Positions 4,504 through 20,019 of a stretch of 20,664 bases of DNA are shown piece after piece (positions within the stretch are counted from its first letter, which is position 1; each line of letters opens with the position of its first letter). The notes under the pieces are model-generated. The model was not told the origin of the DNA and did not search any database. It worked only from the letters and a program-made list of their open reading frames with translations. This DNA comes from a virus, in the IMG/VR virus record IMGVR_UViG_3300042924_003602, positions 1 to 20,664 of that record; one strand, 5' to 3'. A program made the position numbers and the translations under genes.

Positions 4504-5303
4504 TATGCAAGTCCTTTAATTGATTTATCAAGAATATCGAACAACGACAACATGCCAACGGACGCAGCCTCAGCACCATACTGCTGTTCAATTTGTGCTT
4601 CTGCCGCATTGGCAATAGATGGTGCTTTCGGACCGCCTCTTGCTTCAGTAATTTCCTGACCTTCAAAGGCTTTTACAAACTTTTCAATTACTTCTGGTGG
4701 AAGTTGGCGTCCAAGTATTGTGCTACTGACAGTTCTGAATATCGCGCGAGTGTCTTGTTTGGGTGTGGTTCTGATTGCTTTGCCACCACCACCACCCTTG
4801 AAGGTGGTAAGAAATTGGCTGTATGCAACATCGGAAGTAACGCCTTGCGAGTTGGCATAACGCAAGAAGTCTCCCATCGCGGAAAAGTCTTTACTATCAA
4901 ACCCTGTTGGTGATGGTCGTCCTGAACCGTATAGTCCGCGGGCAGCAAGCGAGTTAAGAAATGCTTGGCGTTCTACCAAGTCCATTTTTGCTAGTTCGGC
5001 GTAAGCCTCTTTAGATGGGTCATACTGTCCACGGGTAATGATGCCTCTTGAGTCAACAAGGTTTTGACCGACATAACCAAATGAGGTTGGTCCAGCGATT
5101 TCACGTGCACGAGCAGAGGTGGTTTCGGTGGGGGAAACTGGGGTGGTGCTTACGACGTCGCCTTCACCTGGGGTAAACCCTGCAAGGGTTGCGCCTTTAA
5201 CCTGACGTACTTGTAGTTTTTGTTTTGGGTCCAAGCCTGATGTGCCTGCGGAAAGACCTGGGGCGTCGGCAACTGGCTGCGTTTGTGTCTCGTCAAAACT
5301 CAT
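4503..5303 (-). CDS. Probable virion protein, 266 residues, poly-Gly/TTPxQD
   Basis: The first 90 residues are Thr/Ser/Pro-rich and probably disordered. Residues 100-165 are helical (YAELAKMDLVERQAFLNSLA). Five glycines at 170-174 lead into KAIRTTPKQDTRAIF, then ILGRQLPPEVIEKFVKAFEG, a compact helical section. The poly-Gly plus TTPxQD segment matches that of the 665-residue protein encoded next, so the two may share a partner inside the virion. The gene is TAATG-coupled to the giant gene upstream and to the 665-residue gene downstream. No enzymatic motif is seen. A virion role is inferred from its position in the structural block. Confidence 0.6.
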   Translation of the reverse strand: MSFDETQTQPVADAPGLSAGTSGLDPKQKLQVRQVKGATLAGFTPGEGDVVSTTPVSPTETTSARAREIAGPTSFGYVGQNLVDSRGIITRGQYDPSKEAYAELAKMDLVERQAFLNSLAARGLYGSGRPSPTGFDSKDFSAMGDFLRYANSQGVTSDVAYSQFLTTFKGGGGGKAIRTTPKQDTRAIFRTVSSTILGRQLPPEVIEKFVKAFEGQEITEARGGPKAPSIANAAEAQIEQQYGAEAASVGMLSLFDILDKSIKGLA

Positions 5304-8300
5304 TAATCTACCTCTGCTGCAAGTTTATCTTCAAAAATACGGGCGAATTCTGGTGTTCTCTGGATAAGCACTTGTGCAATACTACTCAACCAGTCACGCA
5401 ACGGTTCGGCTCTCGTAGAATCAAGGCTCTTTAGGTTGACCGCACCTGCTTGCGCTAGGGCTTTATCTCGTGCAGCAATGTACTCCTTGACCGCTTGTGC
5501 AACATCGTTATCAGCGAGACGCTCATCCTGTACAGCAAACTTGAGTTCGCTGACGAAGGATTCGAATTGTCCTGGGTTGAAATCTGCCTTGACAGGGAAT
5601 CCTGGGTATTGGGTGTTGAGGTACTTGCGCCATTGACCAAGCCAGTCACGTTGTTCTGTGCTGATTCTGTCACCTAACTGGTTTCGCTTGGAACGATAGA
5701 CGGCTGAACCAAGTCGGTATTGGGCTGCGGCAACCATCTCTGGGGCTGACAAGCGTCGTCGTTGACCTTTTTGTAGTTGACGGTTCCAAGTTTCAAACGA
5801 GAAGTCGTCACCACCTGGGGCAAAGTAGCCTGCAGTTTGGCTGTATTGGCTGAACAAGTCTCCGTTGTTACGTTGCCAGTTACCGAATTCTTCTGATGCT
5901 TCTAGCCCACCCGCAATTGGTTCTGTCTTATGACCGAGATAGATGAATGCGTTTTCGCCGAAGGTTTCGATGAACCGTTGTACAGCATTGTCTGGGTTTT
6001 CGCTTTGGAACTTGTAAAACTCTTGGGCGATTGCTGATGCGGTGATGTCTCCGCCTTGAGTTTCTAGCCCGAAGTCAATCTGTGGCGATGCTGGTCCCGT
6101 GAACTGGAACAATGCTCGTAGACCTGCAAGGATTCGTGCTTTGCTTTTTGCATCTGCATACAGTTTGGCTGTGTCGTTCGGGTCGGTCAGGTCGTATTCA
6201 CCTGATGACGCAAGGTATTTGACTGTTTCACCATAGGTGTTGCCAAAGATGGTTTCCATGTTGGTGGTGTCGGCTTTGATTGCTTCGATTCCTCGGCGCG
6301 CCCATTGCGGCGCAAACGATGAAACACCCTGCTTGCCGTATGGGAGAACCATGCTTCGTACGAAGTCAAGTCGTGGTGTGTCTGGGATAAGTTCGCTTGC
6401 TGCGATTTGTGCAACTGGACCTACACCTGGGACGCTCAATACCTGGAATGCTCCGCGCACAGGGAACTGGAGGAGTGAACCTGCCCATCCGCCGACTGGG
6501 AAGTTGAACACATGCTTGCCGCTTGTTGGGTCTTTGCCGAACCAGCCTGCACCGATATTGTCTGGGTCTTCGCTGTTGTAGTTGACAGCGTTGTATGCGA
6601 GTTGTGTTTTGCGGATTCGCGATGGGTCTTCGATGAGATAGCCAGCGTATTTGGTAAGTGTTTCACGGAATGCTGTAGCAAATGGTGCTACCACGCGAAG
6701 CATGTCTTCAAAGTTTGATTTGCTTTGGGCGTTGTACAGGATGTCTTGGAGTTCTTGTACAGCAATTGATGATGCAAACTGTTCTAGTTCTTCAATGGTT
6801 GCGTCACCAGTTGCAACCTTGTTGAAGATTGCGTCATAGTTTTTTTTGTTTCCGACGTATTGTTCTACTGAAATTTCTCTACCAGTTTGCGTGCTAATTT
6901 CTGCGGCATAACGGGTGATGTTAGTGCGTAGTGTTGCTTGTTCTGCTGGAGAGAGCAAGAATGCTTTGTCTGCCACTTCCTTGTAGAAGGCTTGGCGGTA
7001 TAGCGGGGAACGTTCTAGTTCTTGTGTTGAGCGTCCTACAAGACTATTGAAGAACCACTTGACACCTGTGTCTAATGCTTGTGAGATTTTGTCTAGACCA
7101 ACGGTTTTGCCTTTTTCTACGCGGGCAGCGACCTTGACGGTTGGGGCAAGCAAGTTTTGCGCGCCCTTGTAGTTGATGTGTTCACGTAGTGCTTCGCTAC
7201 CGAATAGTCCTGGGTCTTTTTCTTTTGTGGTGAATGCGCGCCCAGGTGCTACTGGTTGAATTTCTGCTACTTCACGGTTGATTACCGTTCCAGGGTTGAA
7301 CGGGTCTTCTACTGATGTTTGCCTGATGTTGACAATCACGCCTTGACGGTCATCTGCAAGGTCAACTAGCCCGCCTACACCGCGTGGGTTGTTTGGTTCT
7401 CCAGCGACATAGGTTACGGAGTCAAGTGTTTGTTCTACGCGGCGTGCAATTACTGCTTCATCTGTAAGTTCACCAGCAACACGAACGTTCTCCATGAGGG
7501 GAACACGGTTGTATCCAACAATAAAACGAAGGTCGTCGTCGATGCGTCCAGATGTTGCTTCTCCGCGGAGGATGGTGGATACTCGTGAGGTTGCCGCACG
7601 GTCTACCCAGCCTGCGATGAGGGCGGTGTCAGATGCGCTATCAAAACGAACAAATGATGGTTGTCCACTTCCGTCGGTGATGCGTACACCATTGCGGAAG
7701 TAGTCGATGATTGCGCCTTTGGCTTGTCTGCCTTCTGCTGTGTCATCCAGGAATCTAACTATTTGTTCGGTGCGTTCTGCTTGCGGAAGGTTCCAGAGTG
7801 CTGCTACTCGCGACATGATTGGGTCTGCTGCAATCTGACCGAGGTTATCCACGTATCCAGTGGTGTGTCCTTCAGGGTTTACTGCTCGTGATATAAGAGA
7901 AAAATCTTCGCTTCTCAATAAGCGTTCGTTTGCACCTAATGGGTCTTGGAGGTGTTGATAAACGTTGCGTTGTACTGCTTCTTTGTAGTCGCCGAAGATG
8001 CCGCCAAGTGTTCCTGTTACGTCTTCGAGTGCATCTTCAAATGTTGCTACAACGTTTGCTCCTGTTTCATCCATTTTCCCCGTAAGTGTTCCGACGTAAC
8101 GTCGACCAAGGACTGTTTGCATGAAATGAAATGGGTGAGTAAAGAATGATTCATAGCCCTTGGCGCCGATGCGGATATGTGAGTCAATCATGTTTCTCAC
8201 GATGTATCCGCCTGTAGCGAGCACCATTGGCTTCCATACTTCTTGCTGGAGTTGTTCTGCTGCGCCAATAAGTGCGCGTTCGCGTCCGTCTTTGGTGCGG

Positions 8301-10120
8301 AGTGCGTGACGCAATACTTTGTTTCCTGTAATTGCGCGGAACTTGCGATAATCGGGTAGAACCTGCACGTGGTCTACAAGTTCTACAAGTGCGCTTGGTC
8401 CCTGTATTCTAAGATTGTCTAGGTCGGCTTCGCTGAAGCGTGCAAGTTCATCTTCGCTAATGTATTGGCGTAGAAATTGGATTAGTCCGCCGTCATCCAG
8501 TTGACCGTTTTGGTCGACACCGTATACTCGCAGTTTTGCGCGTTCATCTCTAATGTTTTTAACTGCTTTTTTGGCTACTGATATATCACCACCAGCGTGT
8601 TCGGTGATTACTTCCAAAAATTCGTCATAGAGTTTTTCGGTTGCTTCGCGGCGTGTGGCGGTGTTTTCAATGCTGAATGCTTGCATTGCTTTGCCCATAA
8701 ATTTTTCATAGGTTTCTGGCAACTGCTCGTTAATCTTTAGACCTTGCATCCATTTGCGGTAGGTGCCAATTGACTTAGAGCGTTGCATTCCTGTGCCGTT
8801 AATGATGGCTTGCTGGTTTGGTATCTCTGTCCAGAAGCGACTATTGCGCATTGAACGGTATAGGGGTACACGTTCACGTGCAAATTCGCGTGCAGCAAAT
8901 GTTGCGGCTGTTCCTGTTACATCGGAGATGGACCGCGGGAGGATGCTTGCACCTTGTTCTTTTCCTAGAACTGCTGCTGCTTCACCGAGGATTGCTTTTA
9001 CTTTGGTTGGTGAGTCTGCTCTTGCAAGACGCATTGCAACTTCTGGGTCGATTCTGTCACCGAAGTCTTCCAAGATTTTTGCTGCTGCGCGACCAATCTG
9101 GTTGTCTGCGTCAGCACCAGTAAGTGCGCGTGAAGCAATGTTGTCTGTTGCGGTTTTAGCATGCGTTGCTAGACGGTCTACCATTCGCCCTGCACGTGCG
9201 TTCTTGTCAAACCATGTGTAGAACTTTGATGAAGTAAATGCAATGCTTTCGCGTGCATCCAATCCTGCTTCTCCACGAGCAATACGTGCGGCTGCTTCGC
9301 CTGCTTCTTTGGTGATAGACGGTATCTTGTCAGTTTGTACTACACCGCTTTTAACAAGTTGGTCTGCGATTGCTTGGGAAACTTTGCGTGTTCCTGGAAT
9401 ACCTTTTGCCAGTTCGCCAGTCTTGGCGGCTTTGAGTGCTTGACCTGCATAAAGTGTTGGGTCGGCAAAGATGTTAACGCCAGCATCTAGGAATCCTGAC
9501 AGTAGTGAGTATTCTTTTGAGCCTGGGGTGAAGACCATGTCTGCTGCACCACGACCAATAGTCCATGCGTTGCCGTTGATTGTTCCACGGAACTCGCGTG
9601 CTTTTTGTGCTTGTGTTTTTTGTGCTTCGCCACCGAAAAAGAAACCTGAACCTGCGTCATTGCTGCCAGCCATCTGACCTAACTGTGTGGATGCGAACCA
9701 TCCGTCTACACCCGCTGGGTCATTACCTGAGAATGCTTGTGATGCAGCGTTTTGTACTAGGTCTGGTGTGAACTGCAATGCAGCAAATGTCCAACGTGAC
9801 AACGATTTTGCTTTACCATAAACTTCGCGCTGAAACCAACTACCTGATTCTTGTTTAGGTTGTGGGGTATTGGTCGTTACATATTGTTTGCCAGCAACGT
9901 TTGCCACAGCATCAATTGCTTGTTGTGATGGGTTTTGTTTCGCTAAGTCAAGAATGACACGTGGGGAAACCCACGGTGACTGACGATAAATTTGTGCGGC
10001 GGCTTGTGCTTGTTGTGGTGTTACTGTTTTAGCAAATTTTGCTTGTGCCGCAATGTTGGCTTGTGCGTCTTTATCGTTGTTTGATTCGTCGACTGGGTCG
10101 AATGCACCAAATAATCCCAT
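5303..10120 (-). CDS. Giant virion-associated protein, 1605 residues
   Basis: At 1605 residues it takes up about a quarter of the window. It is mixed helical and soluble, with a disordered-looking N-terminus (MGLFGAFDPVDESNN), long Ala-rich helices, and a C-terminal third with mildly hydrophobic stretches (GSLLQFPVRGAFQVLSVPGV). I see no lytic transglycosylase, lysozyme, HExxH, Walker or polymerase motif, and no long tape-measure-like heptad pattern. The start has AAGGA six bases upstream. Known precedents for very large proteins in such blocks are internal virion proteins ejected into the host (T7 gp16 type), virion RNA polymerases (N4 type) and tape measures. Location directly after portal and before scaffold favours an internal or ejected protein, but this is inference. 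Confidence 0.6.
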   Translation of the reverse strand: MGLFGAFDPVDESNNDKDAQANIAAQAKFAKTVTPQQAQAAAQIYRQSPWVSPRVILDLAKQNPSQQAIDAVANVAGKQYVTTNTPQPKQESGSWFQREVYGKAKSLSRWTFAALQFTPDLVQNAASQAFSGNDPAGVDGWFASTQLGQMAGSNDAGSGFFFGGEAQKTQAQKAREFRGTINGNAWTIGRGAADMVFTPGSKEYSLLSGFLDAGVNIFADPTLYAGQALKAAKTGELAKGIPGTRKVSQAIADQLVKSGVVQTDKIPSITKEAGEAAARIARGEAGLDARESIAFTSSKFYTWFDKNARAGRMVDRLATHAKTATDNIASRALTGADADNQIGRAAAKILEDFGDRIDPEVAMRLARADSPTKVKAILGEAAAVLGKEQGASILPRSISDVTGTAATFAAREFARERVPLYRSMRNSRFWTEIPNQQAIINGTGMQRSKSIGTYRKWMQGLKINEQLPETYEKFMGKAMQAFSIENTATRREATEKLYDEFLEVITEHAGGDISVAKKAVKNIRDERAKLRVYGVDQNGQLDDGGLIQFLRQYISEDELARFSEADLDNLRIQGPSALVELVDHVQVLPDYRKFRAITGNKVLRHALRTKDGRERALIGAAEQLQQEVWKPMVLATGGYIVRNMIDSHIRIGAKGYESFFTHPFHFMQTVLGRRYVGTLTGKMDETGANVVATFEDALEDVTGTLGGIFGDYKEAVQRNVYQHLQDPLGANERLLRSEDFSLISRAVNPEGHTTGYVDNLGQIAADPIMSRVAALWNLPQAERTEQIVRFLDDTAEGRQAKGAIIDYFRNGVRITDGSGQPSFVRFDSASDTALIAGWVDRAATSRVSTILRGEATSGRIDDDLRFIVGYNRVPLMENVRVAGELTDEAVIARRVEQTLDSVTYVAGEPNNPRGVGGLVDLADDRQGVIVNIRQTSVEDPFNPGTVINREVAEIQPVAPGRAFTTKEKDPGLFGSEALREHINYKGAQNLLAPTVKVAARVEKGKTVGLDKISQALDTGVKWFFNSLVGRSTQELERSPLYRQAFYKEVADKAFLLSPAEQATLRTNITRYAAEISTQTGREISVEQYVGNKKNYDAIFNKVATGDATIEELEQFASSIAVQELQDILYNAQSKSNFEDMLRVVAPFATAFRETLTKYAGYLIEDPSRIRKTQLAYNAVNYNSEDPDNIGAGWFGKDPTSGKHVFNFPVGGWAGSLLQFPVRGAFQVLSVPGVGPVAQIAASELIPDTPRLDFVRSMVLPYGKQGVSSFAPQWARRGIEAIKADTTNMETIFGNTYGETVKYLASSGEYDLTDPNDTAKLYADAKSKARILAGLRALFQFTGPASPQIDFGLETQGGDITASAIAQEFYKFQSENPDNAVQRFIETFGENAFIYLGHKTEPIAGGLEASEEFGNWQRNNGDLFSQYSQTAGYFAPGGDDFSFETWNRQLQKGQRRRLSAPEMVAAAQYRLGSAVYRSKRNQLGDRISTEQRDWLGQWRKYLNTQYPGFPVKADFNPGQFESFVSELKFAVQDERLADNDVAQAVKEYIAARDKALAQAGAVNLKSLDSTRAEPLRDWLSSIAQVLIQRTPEFARIFEDKLAAEVD

Positions 10121-16239: not shown

Positions 16240-17028
16240 ATGAACACTGCAACATTCACCGCCGAGGCGGGCGAGGGAACCCTCGCTCCTGTCATCTCGG
16301 CATTACATGACGTCTACGATGACCTCGCGATACATGTCCGCAACATGACGCGGGGCGCGGTAGTGCTCCCGCCTGTAGTCTTCATCTCGCAACGCGATGA
16401 CCGCGCATGGGGACACATTACGACCCGCCCAACATGGGCGACACCATACGAGGCAATAGACGAAGACTACGCTTACGCGCCTTTCGCGGTTGCGATGGGG
16501 CTCGGCACCGAGACGAAGTACTTAGGCAAATATGAAATCATGGTAAGCGCCGAGAACCTCGCGCGAGGCGGGCGCGAAGTGTTCGGGACAGTCGCCCACG
16601 AAGTAGCCCACGCGATAAACATAGTGCGCGGGGTTCAAGACGTGGACAGCAACGGGCGCCACAATAAAAAATTCAAGCAGACAGCCGAGTATTTCTTCGG
16701 GCTCCTAATTGAAGAATACGCGCCTAATCATTGGGCGGGCTGGACTAAGACAACGGTCACCCGCGAGTGTGCGGAGAAGTGGAACGCCCAAATAGAAAAA
16801 ATCTCGGAGTCAATCCGCGTAGCCTCGGGGTACGGACGTAAGACAGGAACGGGGACAGGAACGGGCGGGGGCTTTGTTATCGGCGGGGGCGACACCTCAC
16901 GCGGACGCGATAAGAACGGGCTCAAGGCTGTGTGTTCTTGTGGCTCCATCATTCGGACATCGCGCCGAGCATTGGACAAGGGCATTCTATGCGGGGGGTG
17001 TGATAGCGAATTCATCTACGTTGGTTAG
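16240..17028 (+). CDS. SprT-like zinc metallopeptidase with C-terminal zinc ribbon
   Basis: This 262-residue protein carries HEVAH at 120-124, the HExxH metallopeptidase motif, with a likely third ligand H141 in GRHNKKFK, the spacing seen in SprT/Spartan-like proteins. A Gly/Thr-rich linker (about 201-217) leads to a zinc ribbon using C232, C234, C251 and C254. Spartan relatives cut proteins crosslinked to DNA; the phage versions are uncharacterised, so a role in clearing host proteins from DNA is inference. GGGGA five bases before the ATG supports the start. The linker is encoded by a tandem 12-base repeat next to a TAAGACAG copy. It ends in TAG directly against another copy. Confidence 0.8.
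   Translation: MNTATFTAEAGEGTLAPVISALHDVYDDLAIHVRNMTRGAVVLPPVVFISQRDDRAWGHITTRPTWATPYEAIDEDYAYAPFAVAMGLGTETKYLGKYEIMVSAENLARGGREVFGTVAHEVAHAINIVRGVQDVDSNGRHNKKFKQTAEYFFGLLIEEYAPNHWAGWTKTTVTRECAEKWNAQIEKISESIRVASGYGRKTGTGTGTGGGFVIGGGDTSRGRDKNGLKAVCSCGSIIRTSRRALDKGILCGGCDSEFIYVG
16834..16846 (+). repeat. GGACGTAAGACAG motif copy 1
   Basis: A 13-base copy inside the SprT-like gene, at the start of the linker-coding section. The same 13 bases recur at 17028 and 17853, and 12 of 13 at 17649. Confidence 0.7.
16842..16865 (+). repeat. Tandem 12-base repeat
   Basis: GACAGGAACGGG occurs twice head to tail and encodes the Gly-Thr linker of the SprT-like protein. Because it starts inside the TAAGACAG motif it may have grown by slippage. 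Confidence 0.7.
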
Positions 17029-17040
17029 GACGTAAGACAG
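17028..17040 (+). repeat. GGACGTAAGACAG motif copy 2
   Basis: The first base is the last base of the TAG stop of the SprT-like gene. The last base is the first base of three-way-junction structure A. Confidence 0.7.
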
Positions 17041-17085
17041 GGCGGGAGCGCGCAGGCGCCACGAGGAGCGAGACCTCACCCGCCC
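17040..17085 (+). ncRNA. Candidate three-way-junction RNA, structure A
   Basis: GGGCGGG (17040-17046) pairs perfectly with CCCGCCC (17079-17085). Inside are arm 1, GCGC-GCAG-GCGC (17048-17059), and arm 2, GAGG-AGCGAGA-CCTC (17063-17077) with a seven-base loop, then a single A before the closing strand. The layout resembles a tRNA reduced to acceptor and two arms. It lies between the SprT-like gene and the P2 promoter, so it could be a 3' end structure, a terminator without a T-run, or a processed RNA. Fold found by eye. Confidence 0.45.
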
Positions 17086-17136
17086 GCGAGGGGGAACCCT
17101 TACACAAAGAAAAGCGGGTGCATGACTTGCGTCAGC

Positions 17137-17165
17137 CCTTCAAGTGTGATACAAATAGATATAAG
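17137..17165 (+). promoter_or_regulatory. Rightward promoter P2
   Basis: The -10 TATAAG is at 17160-17165, and CAAGTGTGATAC starts 19 bases before it, as in P1 and the leftward promoter. The bases before the element (GCCCTT) also match P1. Start near 17172; the next ATG is at 17194. Confidence 0.6.
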
Positions 17166-17193
17166 CAAATACACCAACAAACAAGGGGAAAAC

Positions 17194-17484
17194 ATGGAAG
17201 CGATACCGAAAAGCAGTTTCGTTAGGAGCAGTCACCGCGTGACACTCCGCGCGAAGTACCTACCAAATAGCGGACGGATTACAGTCGCCCGCTACGAGGG
17301 CAACACATACGGCAAAGACCCGCAACGGATTACAGTCGCCCGCAACTACGCGCTAGACATGCCCGAGCAGTACGAGCAAGCAATCCTAGAATACCTACGC
17401 CGTGCCAACTGGGGCGGGCATTGGGTCGTCTCAACTATCACAGATGGAGCAGTGGCAGTGTGTGCGGGGGAGTACGTAGCATGA
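17194..17484 (+). CDS. Unknown protein with internal RITVAR repeat
   Basis: A 96-residue basic protein. An upstream in-frame ATG at 17122 is rejected because it precedes the P2 -10; the ATG at 17194 has GGGG six bases before it. Residues about 27-51 contain two copies of RITVAR (GRITVARYEGNTYG, QRITVARNYA) in an otherwise beta-rich section. The C-terminal half has a short helix (PEQYEQAILEYLRRANW). No family recognised. It overlaps the next gene by ATGA, so translation of the membrane protein is probably coupled. Confidence 0.6.
   Translation: MEAIPKSSFVRSSHRVTLRAKYLPNSGRITVARYEGNTYGKDPQRITVARNYALDMPEQYEQAILEYLRRANWGGHWVVSTITDGAVAVCAGEYVA
17275..17343 (+). repeat. 18-base direct repeat within a gene
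   Basis: CGGATTACAGTCGCCCGC occurs at 17275-17292 and 17326-17343, exactly 51 bases apart, keeping frame. It encodes RITVAR twice. The match is perfect at the DNA level including silent positions, which points to recent duplication or a nucleotide-level function. Confidence 0.8.
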
Positions 17485-17648
17485 TAAAAGAATTTCTATG
17501 GACAGGACTCGGCGCCCTTGTCATGTTGTCACCATTCATTCTCGGGGCAATGCTCCAACGGTGGAACGATAACCGCCCGAGGTACAGCACCCGCGAACTG
17601 GTGAACATGCAAAGAAACAAAATCAACAACTACTGGTGGAACAGGTAA
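17481..17648 (+). CDS. Small single-pass membrane protein
   Basis: A 55-residue protein with one hydrophobic helix at about 4-24 (EFLWTGLGALVMLSPFILGA) and a basic, polar tail (RPRYSTRELVNMQRNKINNY). Start ATG at 17481 overlaps the preceding stop as ATGA and has GGGGGAG nine bases upstream. By size and layout it could be a host-membrane-targeting early protein or a superinfection-exclusion factor, but no family is recognised. It stops 11 bases before the next gene, with a motif copy in the gap. Confidence 0.6.
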   Translation: MIKEFLWTGLGALVMLSPFILGAMLQRWNDNRPRYSTRELVNMQRNKINNYWWNR

Positions 17649-17661
17649 GGACGTAAGACAT
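17649..17661 (+). repeat. GGACGTAAGACAt motif copy 3
   Basis: Twelve of 13 bases match; the last base is T because the motif runs into the ATG of the next gene at 17660. It fills the whole gap between the two genes, and the adjoining AAGGA acts as ribosome site. Confidence 0.65.
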
Positions 17662-17860
17662 GAACATTTACGGGATAGTAGATGAAGGTTATTTCATGTG
17701 CATATGCACTGACCCCGACCAACCGATGGCATGGCAACGAGTGACAAATAAAATCCACACGTGCCAATTCTGCGGAGCAGACTTTCAGATTACGCAAGCG
17801 ACACTGGAAGGAAGCAAAGTGCGGGTGATGGAAGTGGACGGGGGCTACCCTCGGACGTAA
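17660..17860 (+). CDS. Small zinc-knuckle protein
   Basis: A 66-residue protein with C14-x-C16 and C35-x-x-C38 (MCICTDPD and CQFCGADF), a spacing that suggests one structural zinc site. Otherwise a short beta-rich protein of unknown role; it could be a nucleic-acid or host-protein binding adaptor. AAGGA eight bases before the ATG supports the start. Its stop codon TAA is the TAA of motif copy 4. Confidence 0.6.
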   Translation: MNIYGIVDEGYFMCICTDPDQPMAWQRVTNKIHTCQFCGADFQITQATLEGSKVRVMEVDGGYPRT

Positions 17861-17865
17861 GACAG
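17853..17865 (+). repeat. GGACGTAAGACAG motif copy 4
   Basis: All 13 bases match copies 1 and 2. The motif supplies the stop codon of the zinc-knuckle gene (17858-17860) and is followed four bases later by structure B. Confidence 0.7.
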
Positions 17866-17869
17866 TAAC

Positions 17870-17908
17870 CCCTAGCGCCTTGGGCGTGCCGTTCAATCGG
17901 GACTAGGG
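17870..17908 (+). ncRNA. Candidate three-way-junction RNA, structure B
   Basis: CCCTAG (17870-17875) pairs with CTAGGG (17903-17908). Inside are arm 1, CGCC-TTG-GGCG (17876-17886), and arm 2, CCG-TTCAAT-CGG (17889-17900), then GA. An alternative is a pseudoknot, with CCTTG (17878-17882) pairing with CAAGG (17910-17914) across the closing stem. Same layout as A and C, no sequence match. Fold found by eye. Confidence 0.4.
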
Positions 17909-17950
17909 ACAAGGCAACACCGCCGAAGCAATAACCGAAGAAGGGACAAC

Positions 17951-18199
17951 ATGAATACCGAAGACAAAACGCAACGCATACTGGAGCGCCTCACTATCAA
18001 GGCACTAGAGGAAGCGTCAGACCTCATTCTTTCATTGCAAATTCAAGTAGCACAACTGGAGCGAGGAGTAGTGCCAGCGCAGACCCCGACAGGTTACACC
18101 CAATACGTGCGAGCACTAGCAAAACTGGATTTCTTTTCAGACCATGTATGTGCAACCCATTCAGTGCAACCATTACATAAGACAGGAGAAACAAAATGA
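17951..18199 (+). CDS. Unknown 82-residue helical protein
   Basis: The N-terminal half is a long charged helix (RILERLTIKALEEASDLILS) that could be coiled coil. The rest is mixed and ends HKTGETK, which is encoded by motif copy 5 and the ribosome site of the next gene. AAGGGA about six bases before ATG supports the start. It overlaps the DUF3846 gene by ATGA. No family recognised. Confidence 0.55.
   Translation: MNTEDKTQRILERLTIKALEEASDLILSLQIQVAQLERGVVPAQTPTGYTQYVRALAKLDFFSDHVCATHSVQPLHKTGETK
18178..18185 (+). repeat. TAAGACAG motif copy 5
   Basis: Lies in the last codons of the 82-residue gene and merges into AGGAG, the ribosome site of the DUF3846 gene. No junction structure follows. Confidence 0.6.
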
Positions 18200-18567
18200 A
18201 AACCGCAATCCGAATCACCACGACAGGCGAGGTGACCATGTTGGACATCAGCACCGACACCCTCGCGCAATTACAGCAAGCAGTCGGCGGGCTGGTGCAG
18301 GCGATTGACCTCACCGAGCGCTTGACGCTGTGGTGTAACGAGGAAGGCAAGTTACTAGAGCAGGCACACAATCCATATGCGCAGTACTTCTGGGACAAGA
18401 TGTTCGGGGCGTACACCGATTACATGGTGGGCGATGTTGTGTTCACTGGCGGGACAGACGACAACGGAAACACACTTGGCATGACCGAAGACGCGGTGGA
18501 GTGGTTGCTGTTCTTCATTGACAAGGTGCGCGACTGGGTGGAGATATGGTCAAACGTTCTGTCATAA
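18196..18567 (+). CDS. DUF3846 family protein
   Basis: A 123-residue protein with the order of conserved features I associate with DUF3846: GGLVQAID at 31-38, NEEGKLL at 48-54, NPYAQ near 59-63, and GDVVFTGGTDDNGNTLGM at 79-96. The family is common in phages and actinobacterial mobile DNA; its function is unknown. The C-terminal extension is helical (EDAVEWLLFFIDKVRDW). AGGAG seven bases before the ATG, which overlaps the previous stop as ATGA. Its own stop TAA belongs to motif copy 6. Confidence 0.75.
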   Translation: MKTAIRITTTGEVTMLDISTDTLAQLQQAVGGLVQAIDLTERLTLWCNEEGKLLEQAHNPYAQYFWDKMFGAYTDYMVGDVVFTGGTDDNGNTLGMTEDAVEWLLFFIDKVRDWVEIWSNVLS

Positions 18568-18572
18568 GACAG
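18565..18572 (+). repeat. TAAGACAG motif copy 6
   Basis: The TAA is the stop codon of the DUF3846 gene. Upstream CTGTC can pair with GACAG (CTGTC-ATAA-GACAG). Structure C begins four bases later. Confidence 0.7.
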
Positions 18573-18575
18573 GCA

Positions 18576-18615
18576 GGGTGGAAGGCATACCTCGCGGTTC
18601 AAGTCCGCGACACCC
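18576..18615 (+). ncRNA. Candidate three-way-junction RNA, structure C, with tRNA-like T-arm
   Basis: GGGTG (18576-18580) pairs with CACCC (18611-18615). Arm 1 is AGG-CATA-CCT (18583-18592). Arm 2 is CGCGG-TTCAAGT-CCGCG (18593-18609), a perfect tRNA T-arm: five base pairs, seven-base loop, GGTTCAAGTCC core. The remainder of a tRNA (D-arm, anticodon arm) is absent. It lies between the DUF3846 stop and a good promoter. It could be a member of the A/B/C family or a phage attachment core copied from a host tRNA 3' end. Confidence 0.5.
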
Positions 18616-18640
18616 ACGATGTAAAGATATAAAACAATAC

Positions 18641-18700: not shown

Positions 18701-19171
18701 ATGGGCTTAGACCAATATCTATACGCAAATAAAAATATCGGGAACGCGGAGTGGCGAGGCGATGAGGAGCGAGAACAATTCTCACAAATCATCAGCACCA
18801 TGAACGCGCATGACATGGTTGAGGGCGAGGACATACCAAGCATGAACCTCGCGGTCAAGGTTGGTTGCTGGAGAAAGGCTAATCAAATTCACGGCTGGTT
18901 CGTACGCAACGTGCAAGACGGCGAAGATGAATGCCGTGAGTATGACGTGAGCCGAGGCAAGTTGCAGGAACTCTTGACCCTGTGTCAGACAGTCAAGCAA
19001 GACCCAAGCAAGGCAGAGAAACTACTCTCACCAACAGCAGGGTTCTTCTTCGGGTCGGACGAGATTGACGAATGGTACTGGCATGACATTGACTACACGA
19101 TTGAGTTGCTATCTCGCGTACTTAAGACAGTAAACGAAGACTGGCACTTGACCTATCAGGCGAGTTGGTGA
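18701..19171 (+). CDS. Conserved MGLD-type phage protein
   Basis: A 156-residue protein starting MGLDQYLYANK, with WRKANQIHGWFVRNVQDG and GEDECREYDVSRGKLQELL followed by GFFFGSDEIDEWYW. This set of blocks is a widespread family of uncharacterised proteins in phages and bacteria; sightings of MGLDxYL, WRKANxIHxWF and FFFGS are from memory. Function unknown. AAAGGGA seven bases before the ATG, and P4 directly upstream, so it probably opens a new transcription unit. An upstream in-frame ATG at 18518 is rejected because it would run through structure C and P4. Confidence 0.7.
   Translation: MGLDQYLYANKNIGNAEWRGDEEREQFSQIISTMNAHDMVEGEDIPSMNLAVKVGCWRKANQIHGWFVRNVQDGEDECREYDVSRGKLQELLTLCQTVKQDPSKAEKLLSPTAGFFFGSDEIDEWYWHDIDYTIELLSRVLKTVNEDWHLTYQASW
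19123..19130 (+). repeat. TAAGACAG motif copy 7
   Basis: Inside the MGLD-type gene near its 3' end, read as LKTV. No junction structure recognised after it. Confidence 0.55.
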
Positions 19172-19844: not shown

Positions 19845-20019
19845 GGAAACTATCCGAGCAGAAATTATCCGAGGCTTTGAGGACTTACGTTTCTTACTAA
19901 GTGAGGGCGTAAGACAGGGAGAACTACGCCCAATGCAAACGTTCGGAATGTTAGAGCAACTAAACCAAGCCCAGTTTCTTATTGAGCAGGGCATGAAGGA
20001 CAAGGAGACAGCACAATGA
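19837..20019 (+). CDS. Unknown 60-residue helical protein
   Basis: Two helices are apparent (KETIRAEIIRGFEDLRFLLS and FGMLEQLNQAQFLIEQGM). The gene overlaps its upstream neighbour by eight bases and the next by ATGA. Start ATG at 19837 has AAAGGAG upstream; an earlier in-frame ATG at 19795 is rejected as it lies in the preceding gene. Contains motif copy 8. No family recognised. Confidence 0.55.
   Translation: MTKETIRAEIIRGFEDLRFLLSEGVRQGELRPMQTFGMLEQLNQAQFLIEQGMKDKETAQ
19910..19917 (+). repeat. TAAGACAG motif copy 8
   Basis: Inside the 60-residue gene, read in a different frame (VRQG) from copies 1, 5 and 7, so protein sequence does not explain its conservation. A near copy, CAAGACAG, lies at 19769-19776. 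Confidence 0.55.

Follow-up and report, generated by a model that had tools for sequence, protein, structure and literature searches.

Folds with the shape of tRNAs lie behind stop codons and between the genes of long transcripts in mitochondria, where they act as punctuation, and in the early mRNA of phage T7 RNase III sites between the genes are thought to divide the transcript. In addition, RNase P cuts bacterial polycistronic mRNAs as well as phage RNAs with tRNA-like parts, and mascRNA is a tRNA-like RNA that both RNase P and RNase Z cleave (PMC4919922). Here we describe a family of tRNA-like elements in the gaps between early genes of a virus represented by IMG/VR record IMGVR_UViG_3300042924_003602, a linear fragment of 20,664 nt that was analyzed as a whole and is called the window in the following. 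Its minus strand carries the capsid, portal and terminase genes, while on the plus strand small early genes begin at about 15.9 kb. Three of these genes are followed by an element, all on the plus strand (17040-17089, 17870-17912, and 18576-18619).

The elements share features with each of the described systems. With mitochondrial punctuation they have the position behind stop codons and between genes in common, but they lack an anticodon arm and occur in phages, and their cleavage is putative. Like the T7 sites they are structured sites between early genes, but the former are long hairpins and not tRNA-like. The mRNA and phage RNA substrates of RNase P are also not tRNAs; however, they are scattered single cases and do not form a repeated intergenic system. 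mascRNA and menRNA are tRNA-like RNAs at transcript 3' ends and substrates of RNase P and RNase Z, but they are animal nuclear RNAs with one copy per transcript, and the elements differ from them in host and layout. The corresponding family (RF01684) was also the best lead in Rfam, with 26.7 bits and an E value of 0.19 for one element at a cut-off of 42.5, and no element reached the gathering cut-off of any Rfam family. The tRNA-like domain of tmRNA (transfer-messenger RNA) has an acceptor stem, a T-arm, a stemless D-loop, and no anticodon arm, as has one class of elements (type III, see below), but the elements contain neither a tag reading frame nor a connector and comprise 44-50 nt in all. 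ARAGORN called none of them as tRNA or tmRNA. The possibility that the DUF2693-FD RNA (RF02926) is identical to the elements and was assigned to the wrong strand was not supported (15.3 bits on the opposite strand, cut-off 44.5); in addition, its true members carry a 2-bp arm there. tRNA mimicry and tRNA punctuation are known kinds, of which a repeated form that lacks the anticodon and lies between early genes of phages seems to be a new variant. A prior description was not found in the open-access literature, and because subscription papers and preprints were outside the scope of the search, priority is unproven; the elements form a widespread and apparently undescribed class of RNAs.

Judged by their sequences, the elements are tRNAs minus the anticodon arm, with an acceptor stem of 5-7 bp, a D-like arm or loop, a T-arm with a TTCRA loop, and A73-C74. 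Of the features of a tRNA, the acceptor stem and a T-arm whose loop is TTCRA are present, whereas the 2-5 nt between the D-like arm and the T-arm leave no room for an anticodon arm in RNAs of 44-52 nt, which makes the elements unusable for decoding. In type I (like the element at 17870) one arm is nearly constant (CGCY-NNN-GGCG), and the T-like arm of 3-4 bp has the loop TTCRAT; in a subtype arm 1 is CCTC/GGGG and the loop is GTCRNN. Type II is a tRNA that lacks the anticodon arm only, with an acceptor of 6-7 bp, a D-like arm of 4-5 bp with the loop NNNGG, a variable loop of 3-5 nt, and a 5-bp T-arm with TTCGATY. Type III (like the element at 18576) combines an acceptor of 5 bp with a T-arm of 6 bp, and its D-like stretch (ACTGGCAGACA or similar) is unpaired.

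Relatives of the window were obtained via the terminase (80 records), and further ones via a second terminase. A descriptor consisting of a closing stem, an arm, and an arm with a TTCRA loop was scanned on the window and the 80 relatives. It matched 49 times on the early-gene strand versus 3 times on the other strand and 1-7 times in dinucleotide-shuffled copies of the same DNA. The initial annotation of the window had cautioned that short stems arise by chance in GC-rich DNA; with these numbers, the folds are far above chance. Two covariance models, R1 and R2, were run on both strands of about 1 Mb (E values up to 1), and every one of their 41 and 45 matches, respectively, was on the early strand. 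With the three models (R1-R3), all 12 long relative records tested (30-42 kb) were found to contain at least one element. In the model-fitted alignments 98.6-100% of the cells pair, 94-165 cells are altered on both sides, and all helices covary (scores of 0.53-0.71 versus 0.15-0.19 in shuffles).

Because model-fitted alignments lean towards structure, an unbiased test was made, in which viral contigs were scanned for a pattern with just two fixed parts, the D-like core and the T-loop core. The 29 distinct matches formed 115 of 116 outer pairs in the T-stem and 116 of 116 in the acceptor (231/232 together), compared to means of 66 and 77, respectively, when partners were swapped between sequences. 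Furthermore, the two cores covary with one another: D-like GACTGGC occurs with T-loop TTC (n = 19) and GACTAGC with TGC (n = 10), with 1 mixed case (Fisher p = 3.7e-7, a value for which each distinct sequence was treated as independent, although sequences from related phages are not). Both states were seen with several different acceptor stems. This covariation corresponds to the contact that D-loop and T-loop make in the elbow of tRNAs, and the elements are, as the covariation of their sequences indicates, under present structural selection. The initial annotation had proposed that tRNA-like RNAs form a family at the ends of early genes, in which the sequence varies and the plan is kept by structural selection, and this is borne out by covariation and strand bias. 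The family is far larger than the three copies first noticed and includes cultured phages.

These three copies are indeed present at the sites reported at first, which had all been drawn as three-way junctions. The first element (17040-17089) begins 11 nt past the stop codon at 17026-17028 of a gene for a protein of 262 aa (16240-17028, PHROG 6361, no assigned function). It folds exactly to the proposed plan, with a 7-bp acceptor (17040-17046/17079-17085), arm 1 (17048-17051/17056-17059), a T-like arm (17063-17066/17074-17077, loop AGCGAGA), and the tail GCGA (17086-17089). The folding energy of 17040-17085 is -26.6 kcal/mol (z -3.1), and 0 of 200 shuffles equal it. A relative (L024) shows a compensatory change from GAGG/CCTC to GGGG/CCCC. 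The models R1-R3 do not match this element, and at the level of sequence it is therefore the weakest of the three. Two other relatives (L021 and L043) hold type I elements in the gap after the homologous gene, and thus the slot after the PHROG 6361 gene is retained while the type of element switches. In the distant relatives L224, L242, L246, and L250 two long stable hairpins were observed in this slot.

The second element (17870-17912, type I) begins 9 nt past the stop codon TAA (17858-17860) of an early gene for 66 aa (17660-17860). It has the acceptor CCCTAG/CTAGGG, arm 1 CGCC-TTG-GGCG, the T-like arm CCG-TTCAAT-CGG, and the tail ACAA. The minimum-energy fold of 17870-17908 is another hairpin (z -2.1, 4 of 200 shuffles as good), and the three-way junction follows from covariation in relatives and not from energy. 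The match to R1 has 55.1 bits (E 1.6e-13), and among 37 distinct relatives 100% of the cells are paired, 94 of them altered on both sides. The third element (18576-18619, type III) begins 8 nt past the stop codon TAA (18565-18567) of an early gene for 123 aa (18196-18567, PHROG 3777) and matches R3 with 37.2 bits (E 1.6e-6). Here arm 1 of the junction is doubtful, because most homologues contain the 11-nt stretch ACTGGCAGACA, which is unable to form it. The element is better read as two helices, an acceptor (GGGTG/CACCC) and a T-arm (TCGCGG-TTCAAGT-CCGCGA), with the unpaired D-like stretch GAAGGCATACC and the tail ACGA (18576-18615: z -2.3, 4 of 200 shuffles as good). The comparison with shuffles had also been proposed at the outset; the fold energies alone of the three sites are modest, and the comparative evidence is decisive.

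The position of the elements was analyzed for 82 distinct copies from the window and its relatives, relative to the stop codons of open frames of at least 50 codons. As many as 72 start 5-22 nt past a stop codon (mode 7-9), compared to 11% of random early-strand positions, which is compatible with the earlier suggestion that message ends are marked or processed. In a set of 122 distinct elements, A occupies position 73 in 117 and C occupies position 74 in all, while C75 is avoided (7 of 122); compared to the 3' RCCA that pairs with the L15 loop of RNase P, R73 and C74 are thus nearly invariant and C75 is rare. Position -1 is T in just 4 of the 122, in disagreement with the U(-1) preference of RNase P. 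A strong hairpin directly follows the tail in 61% of the elements, versus 11% in shuffled sequences and 15% in random stretches. Acceptor and T-arm form a stack of 10-12 bp, and GG in the D-like loop, GG before the T-loop, and A in the T-loop (TTCRA) are conserved. According to a review (PMC11143913), RNase P measures a distance of about 12 bp from the T-loop, with strong interference at G19, G53, and A58, to which the conserved sites would be equivalent, so that the elements carry the putative recognition features of this enzyme.

The conserved T-loop, the D-loop contact, the stack, A73, and C74 are features that tRNA-maturation enzymes read, and the lost anticodon arm is one that they do not need. 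Along with the presence of one element per gap and with the downstream hairpin, this suggests a punctuation of early transcripts, and we see about an even chance that the elements are mRNA punctuation that is cut, or serves as 3' caps, via the host tRNA-maturation nucleases RNase P and RNase Z. While fold, covariation, strand, position, tail, following hairpin, and recurrence are observed, we infer the enzymes, the cleavage, the effect on the messages, and the benefit. Within a long early transcript an element would fold right behind the stop codon, its acceptor stem stacking on the T-arm and the T-loop being contacted by the D-like arm or loop. It would then be recognized by host enzymes that bind the top half of tRNAs, most likely RNase P at the 5' end and/or RNase Z at the 3' end after A73. 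CCA inhibits RNase Z, and the avoidance of CC at positions 74-75 would be expected if the enzyme cuts there. The transcript would be split into single-gene messages, or the element would be retained as a structured 3' end, and the message that follows would begin with the downstream hairpin as its protected 5' end. Several points weigh against this explanation. C75 and U(-1), which bacterial RNase P favors, are mostly absent. A 5' cut would leave a bare 7-9 nt after the stop codon, and thus a 3' cap without 5' cleavage is equally possible. Some early gaps hold no element, and the models found none in phiC31, a phage with early terminators that lack U tails.

A pure 3' cap, in which the upstream message would retain the fold as a block against 3' exonucleases and the ends would come from an unrelated nuclease or a nearby end of transcription, seems rather unlikely to us. 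The tRNA-like 3' ends of plant viruses are a precedent, the compact GC-rich elements always lie just past a stop codon, and the upstream message would not be left bare. However, a plain hairpin would be enough for a cap, and the D-loop/T-loop covariation, A73-C74, and the avoidance of CC would be unexplained. Clearly less probable is a role as small RNAs acting in trans, which after excision would occupy host tRNA enzymes, elongation factor EF-Tu, or the CCA-adding enzyme during infection: the presence of 4-14 copies per isolate genome and the conserved acceptor end would fit, but such RNAs have no need for a tight spacing to stop codons or a one-per-gap layout, and the stems vary widely among copies within one genome. 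Just as improbable are translation signals, by which a fold 7-9 nt past the stop codon would affect ribosomes during termination (by readthrough, recycling, or an insulation of the gene that follows). The spacing of the elements is as tight as that of known stop-proximal stimulators, but only 2 of the 82 elements have a frame open across them and the stop-to-start gaps are not multiples of three, which excludes readthrough fusions as a general role. Intrinsic terminators would explain GC-rich structures at gene ends and are nevertheless very improbable, since a U-tract follows none of the 122 elements, terminators have no need for conserved loop sequences, and genes carry on downstream after gaps of 22-54 nt. 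Degenerate tRNA genes or attachment-site remnants, suggested by the likeness of T-arm and acceptor to tRNA 3' halves, can practically be dismissed in view of the covariation, which reflects present selection, the intergenic location of the 4-14 copies, which occur even in phages where no integrase is seen, and the failure of ARAGORN to detect any.

Elements that might act in the punctuation of messages are not restricted to the relatives of the window. When the type III consensus was used as a blastn query, 109 phage records matched, and among the 60 matches listed all were unannotated there; a variant query matched 256 records, the weak ones including ordinary tRNA matches. In Konstantine and Send513 (Mycobacterium) and Lika and Joe (Streptomyces), the class of the third window element is also found, and the models identified 35 elements (4-14 copies per genome), 32 of them intergenic, at a median of 9 nt past the stop codon and usually 22-54 nt ahead of the next start. 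The other three overlap small annotated genes, one of which, according to its annotators, was not called by GeneMark. In these four phages and in Gordonia phage Cafasso, which has elements on both arms, many successive gaps of small early genes are filled with unannotated elements, and Gordonia phage Rabbitrun and Microbacterium phage Roman contain at least one each. No convincing element was found in the isolate FlowerPower, whose capsid protein is related to that of the window, and a search of plasmids gave no match. It is slightly short of an even chance, in our estimation, that many actinobacterial phage lineages, and possibly some archaeal viruses, employ anticodon-less tRNA mimics, one per early gap, for a general punctuation of their mRNAs, in which host tRNA-maturation nucleases cut or cap them.

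Several single occurrences were also observed. A contig of Corynebacterium halotolerans contains one type III element (L337:145-188) and is probably a prophage, because an identical viral contig exists in IMG/VR, and a metagenome-assembled genome of Bacteroidales contains another (L338:5268-5311). The archaeal viruses HHTV-2 (L346:1497-1539) and HRTV-5 (L345:1490-1532) have candidate elements between genes (R3 E values of 6.5e-4 and 3.6e-3), one per virus, that of HRTV-5 being weak and single in 50 kb. Blastn listed 29 halovirus records, several with matches to the T-arm only. In phiC31, an early gap harbors an unannotated tRNA-shaped sequence with a TTCGAATCC T-arm (L344:31424-31509), besides the annotated tRNA-Thr.

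If the punctuation of early messages by these elements is true, it would be the phage counterpart of mitochondrial tRNA punctuation, phages would borrow tRNA-processing enzymes for the management of early messages, some of the best-collected phages would contain a repeated unannotated class of RNA, and the gaps of about 90 nt between small early genes would have a concrete reason. The elements are compact natural tRNA mimics for studies of RNase P and RNase Z recognition, and they offer an improved annotation of thousands of phage genomes. Direct tests are possible in cultured Konstantine, Send513, Joe, and Lika on laboratory hosts.

The initial annotation had described the folds as led by the motif TAAGACAG, starting 0-4 bases after it. 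The distances were found to be -1, 4, and 3, and in two cases the TAA of the motif is indeed the stop codon. However, only 8 of the 122 distinct elements have a copy within 25 nt upstream, and most copies in the window have no adjoining element. TAAGACAG was therefore rejected as a leader of the folds and is a separate repeat of the clade. With 27 matches in the window (up to 1 mismatch) versus 14.5 expected, it is a real repeat. A scan of viral contigs for TAAGACAG followed by GGTTCAA gave chiefly chance matches and was not used. Copies at early gene junctions are found at 18178-18185, 18565-18572, 19123-19130, and 19910-19917, and copies in the form GGACGTAAGACAG at 16835-16846, 17029-17040 (within 17027-17040), 17650-17661, and 17854-17865, all on the plus strand and outside the RNA fold; the junction copies are always oriented along transcription. 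Read from the sequence, the copy ahead of the third element is the 3' half of a hairpin CTGTC-ATAA-GACAG (18559-18572, plus strand) with the stop codon in its loop, and beside several elements of relatives TAAGACAG likewise forms the 3' half of a short hairpin, of the type TGTC-GTAA-GACA. The repeats could be binding sites of a regulator, such as stoperators, or hairpin halves. A stretch like TTGTGATACAGTAAGACA is conserved ahead of early genes (17143-17157 in the window, and in L021, L022, L026, and L030) and resembles the -10 region of a promoter, the putative transcript start of which would fall on the TAAGACA motif.

A close DNA match to the window was not found among phage isolates, and its major capsid protein is at most 42-49% identical to those of Streptomyces phages, e.g., FlowerPower, and of one uncultured phage. 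Amid the portal-side genes, the minus strand encodes a protein of 1605 aa without a PHROG match (5303-10120), which is probably a large internal virion protein.

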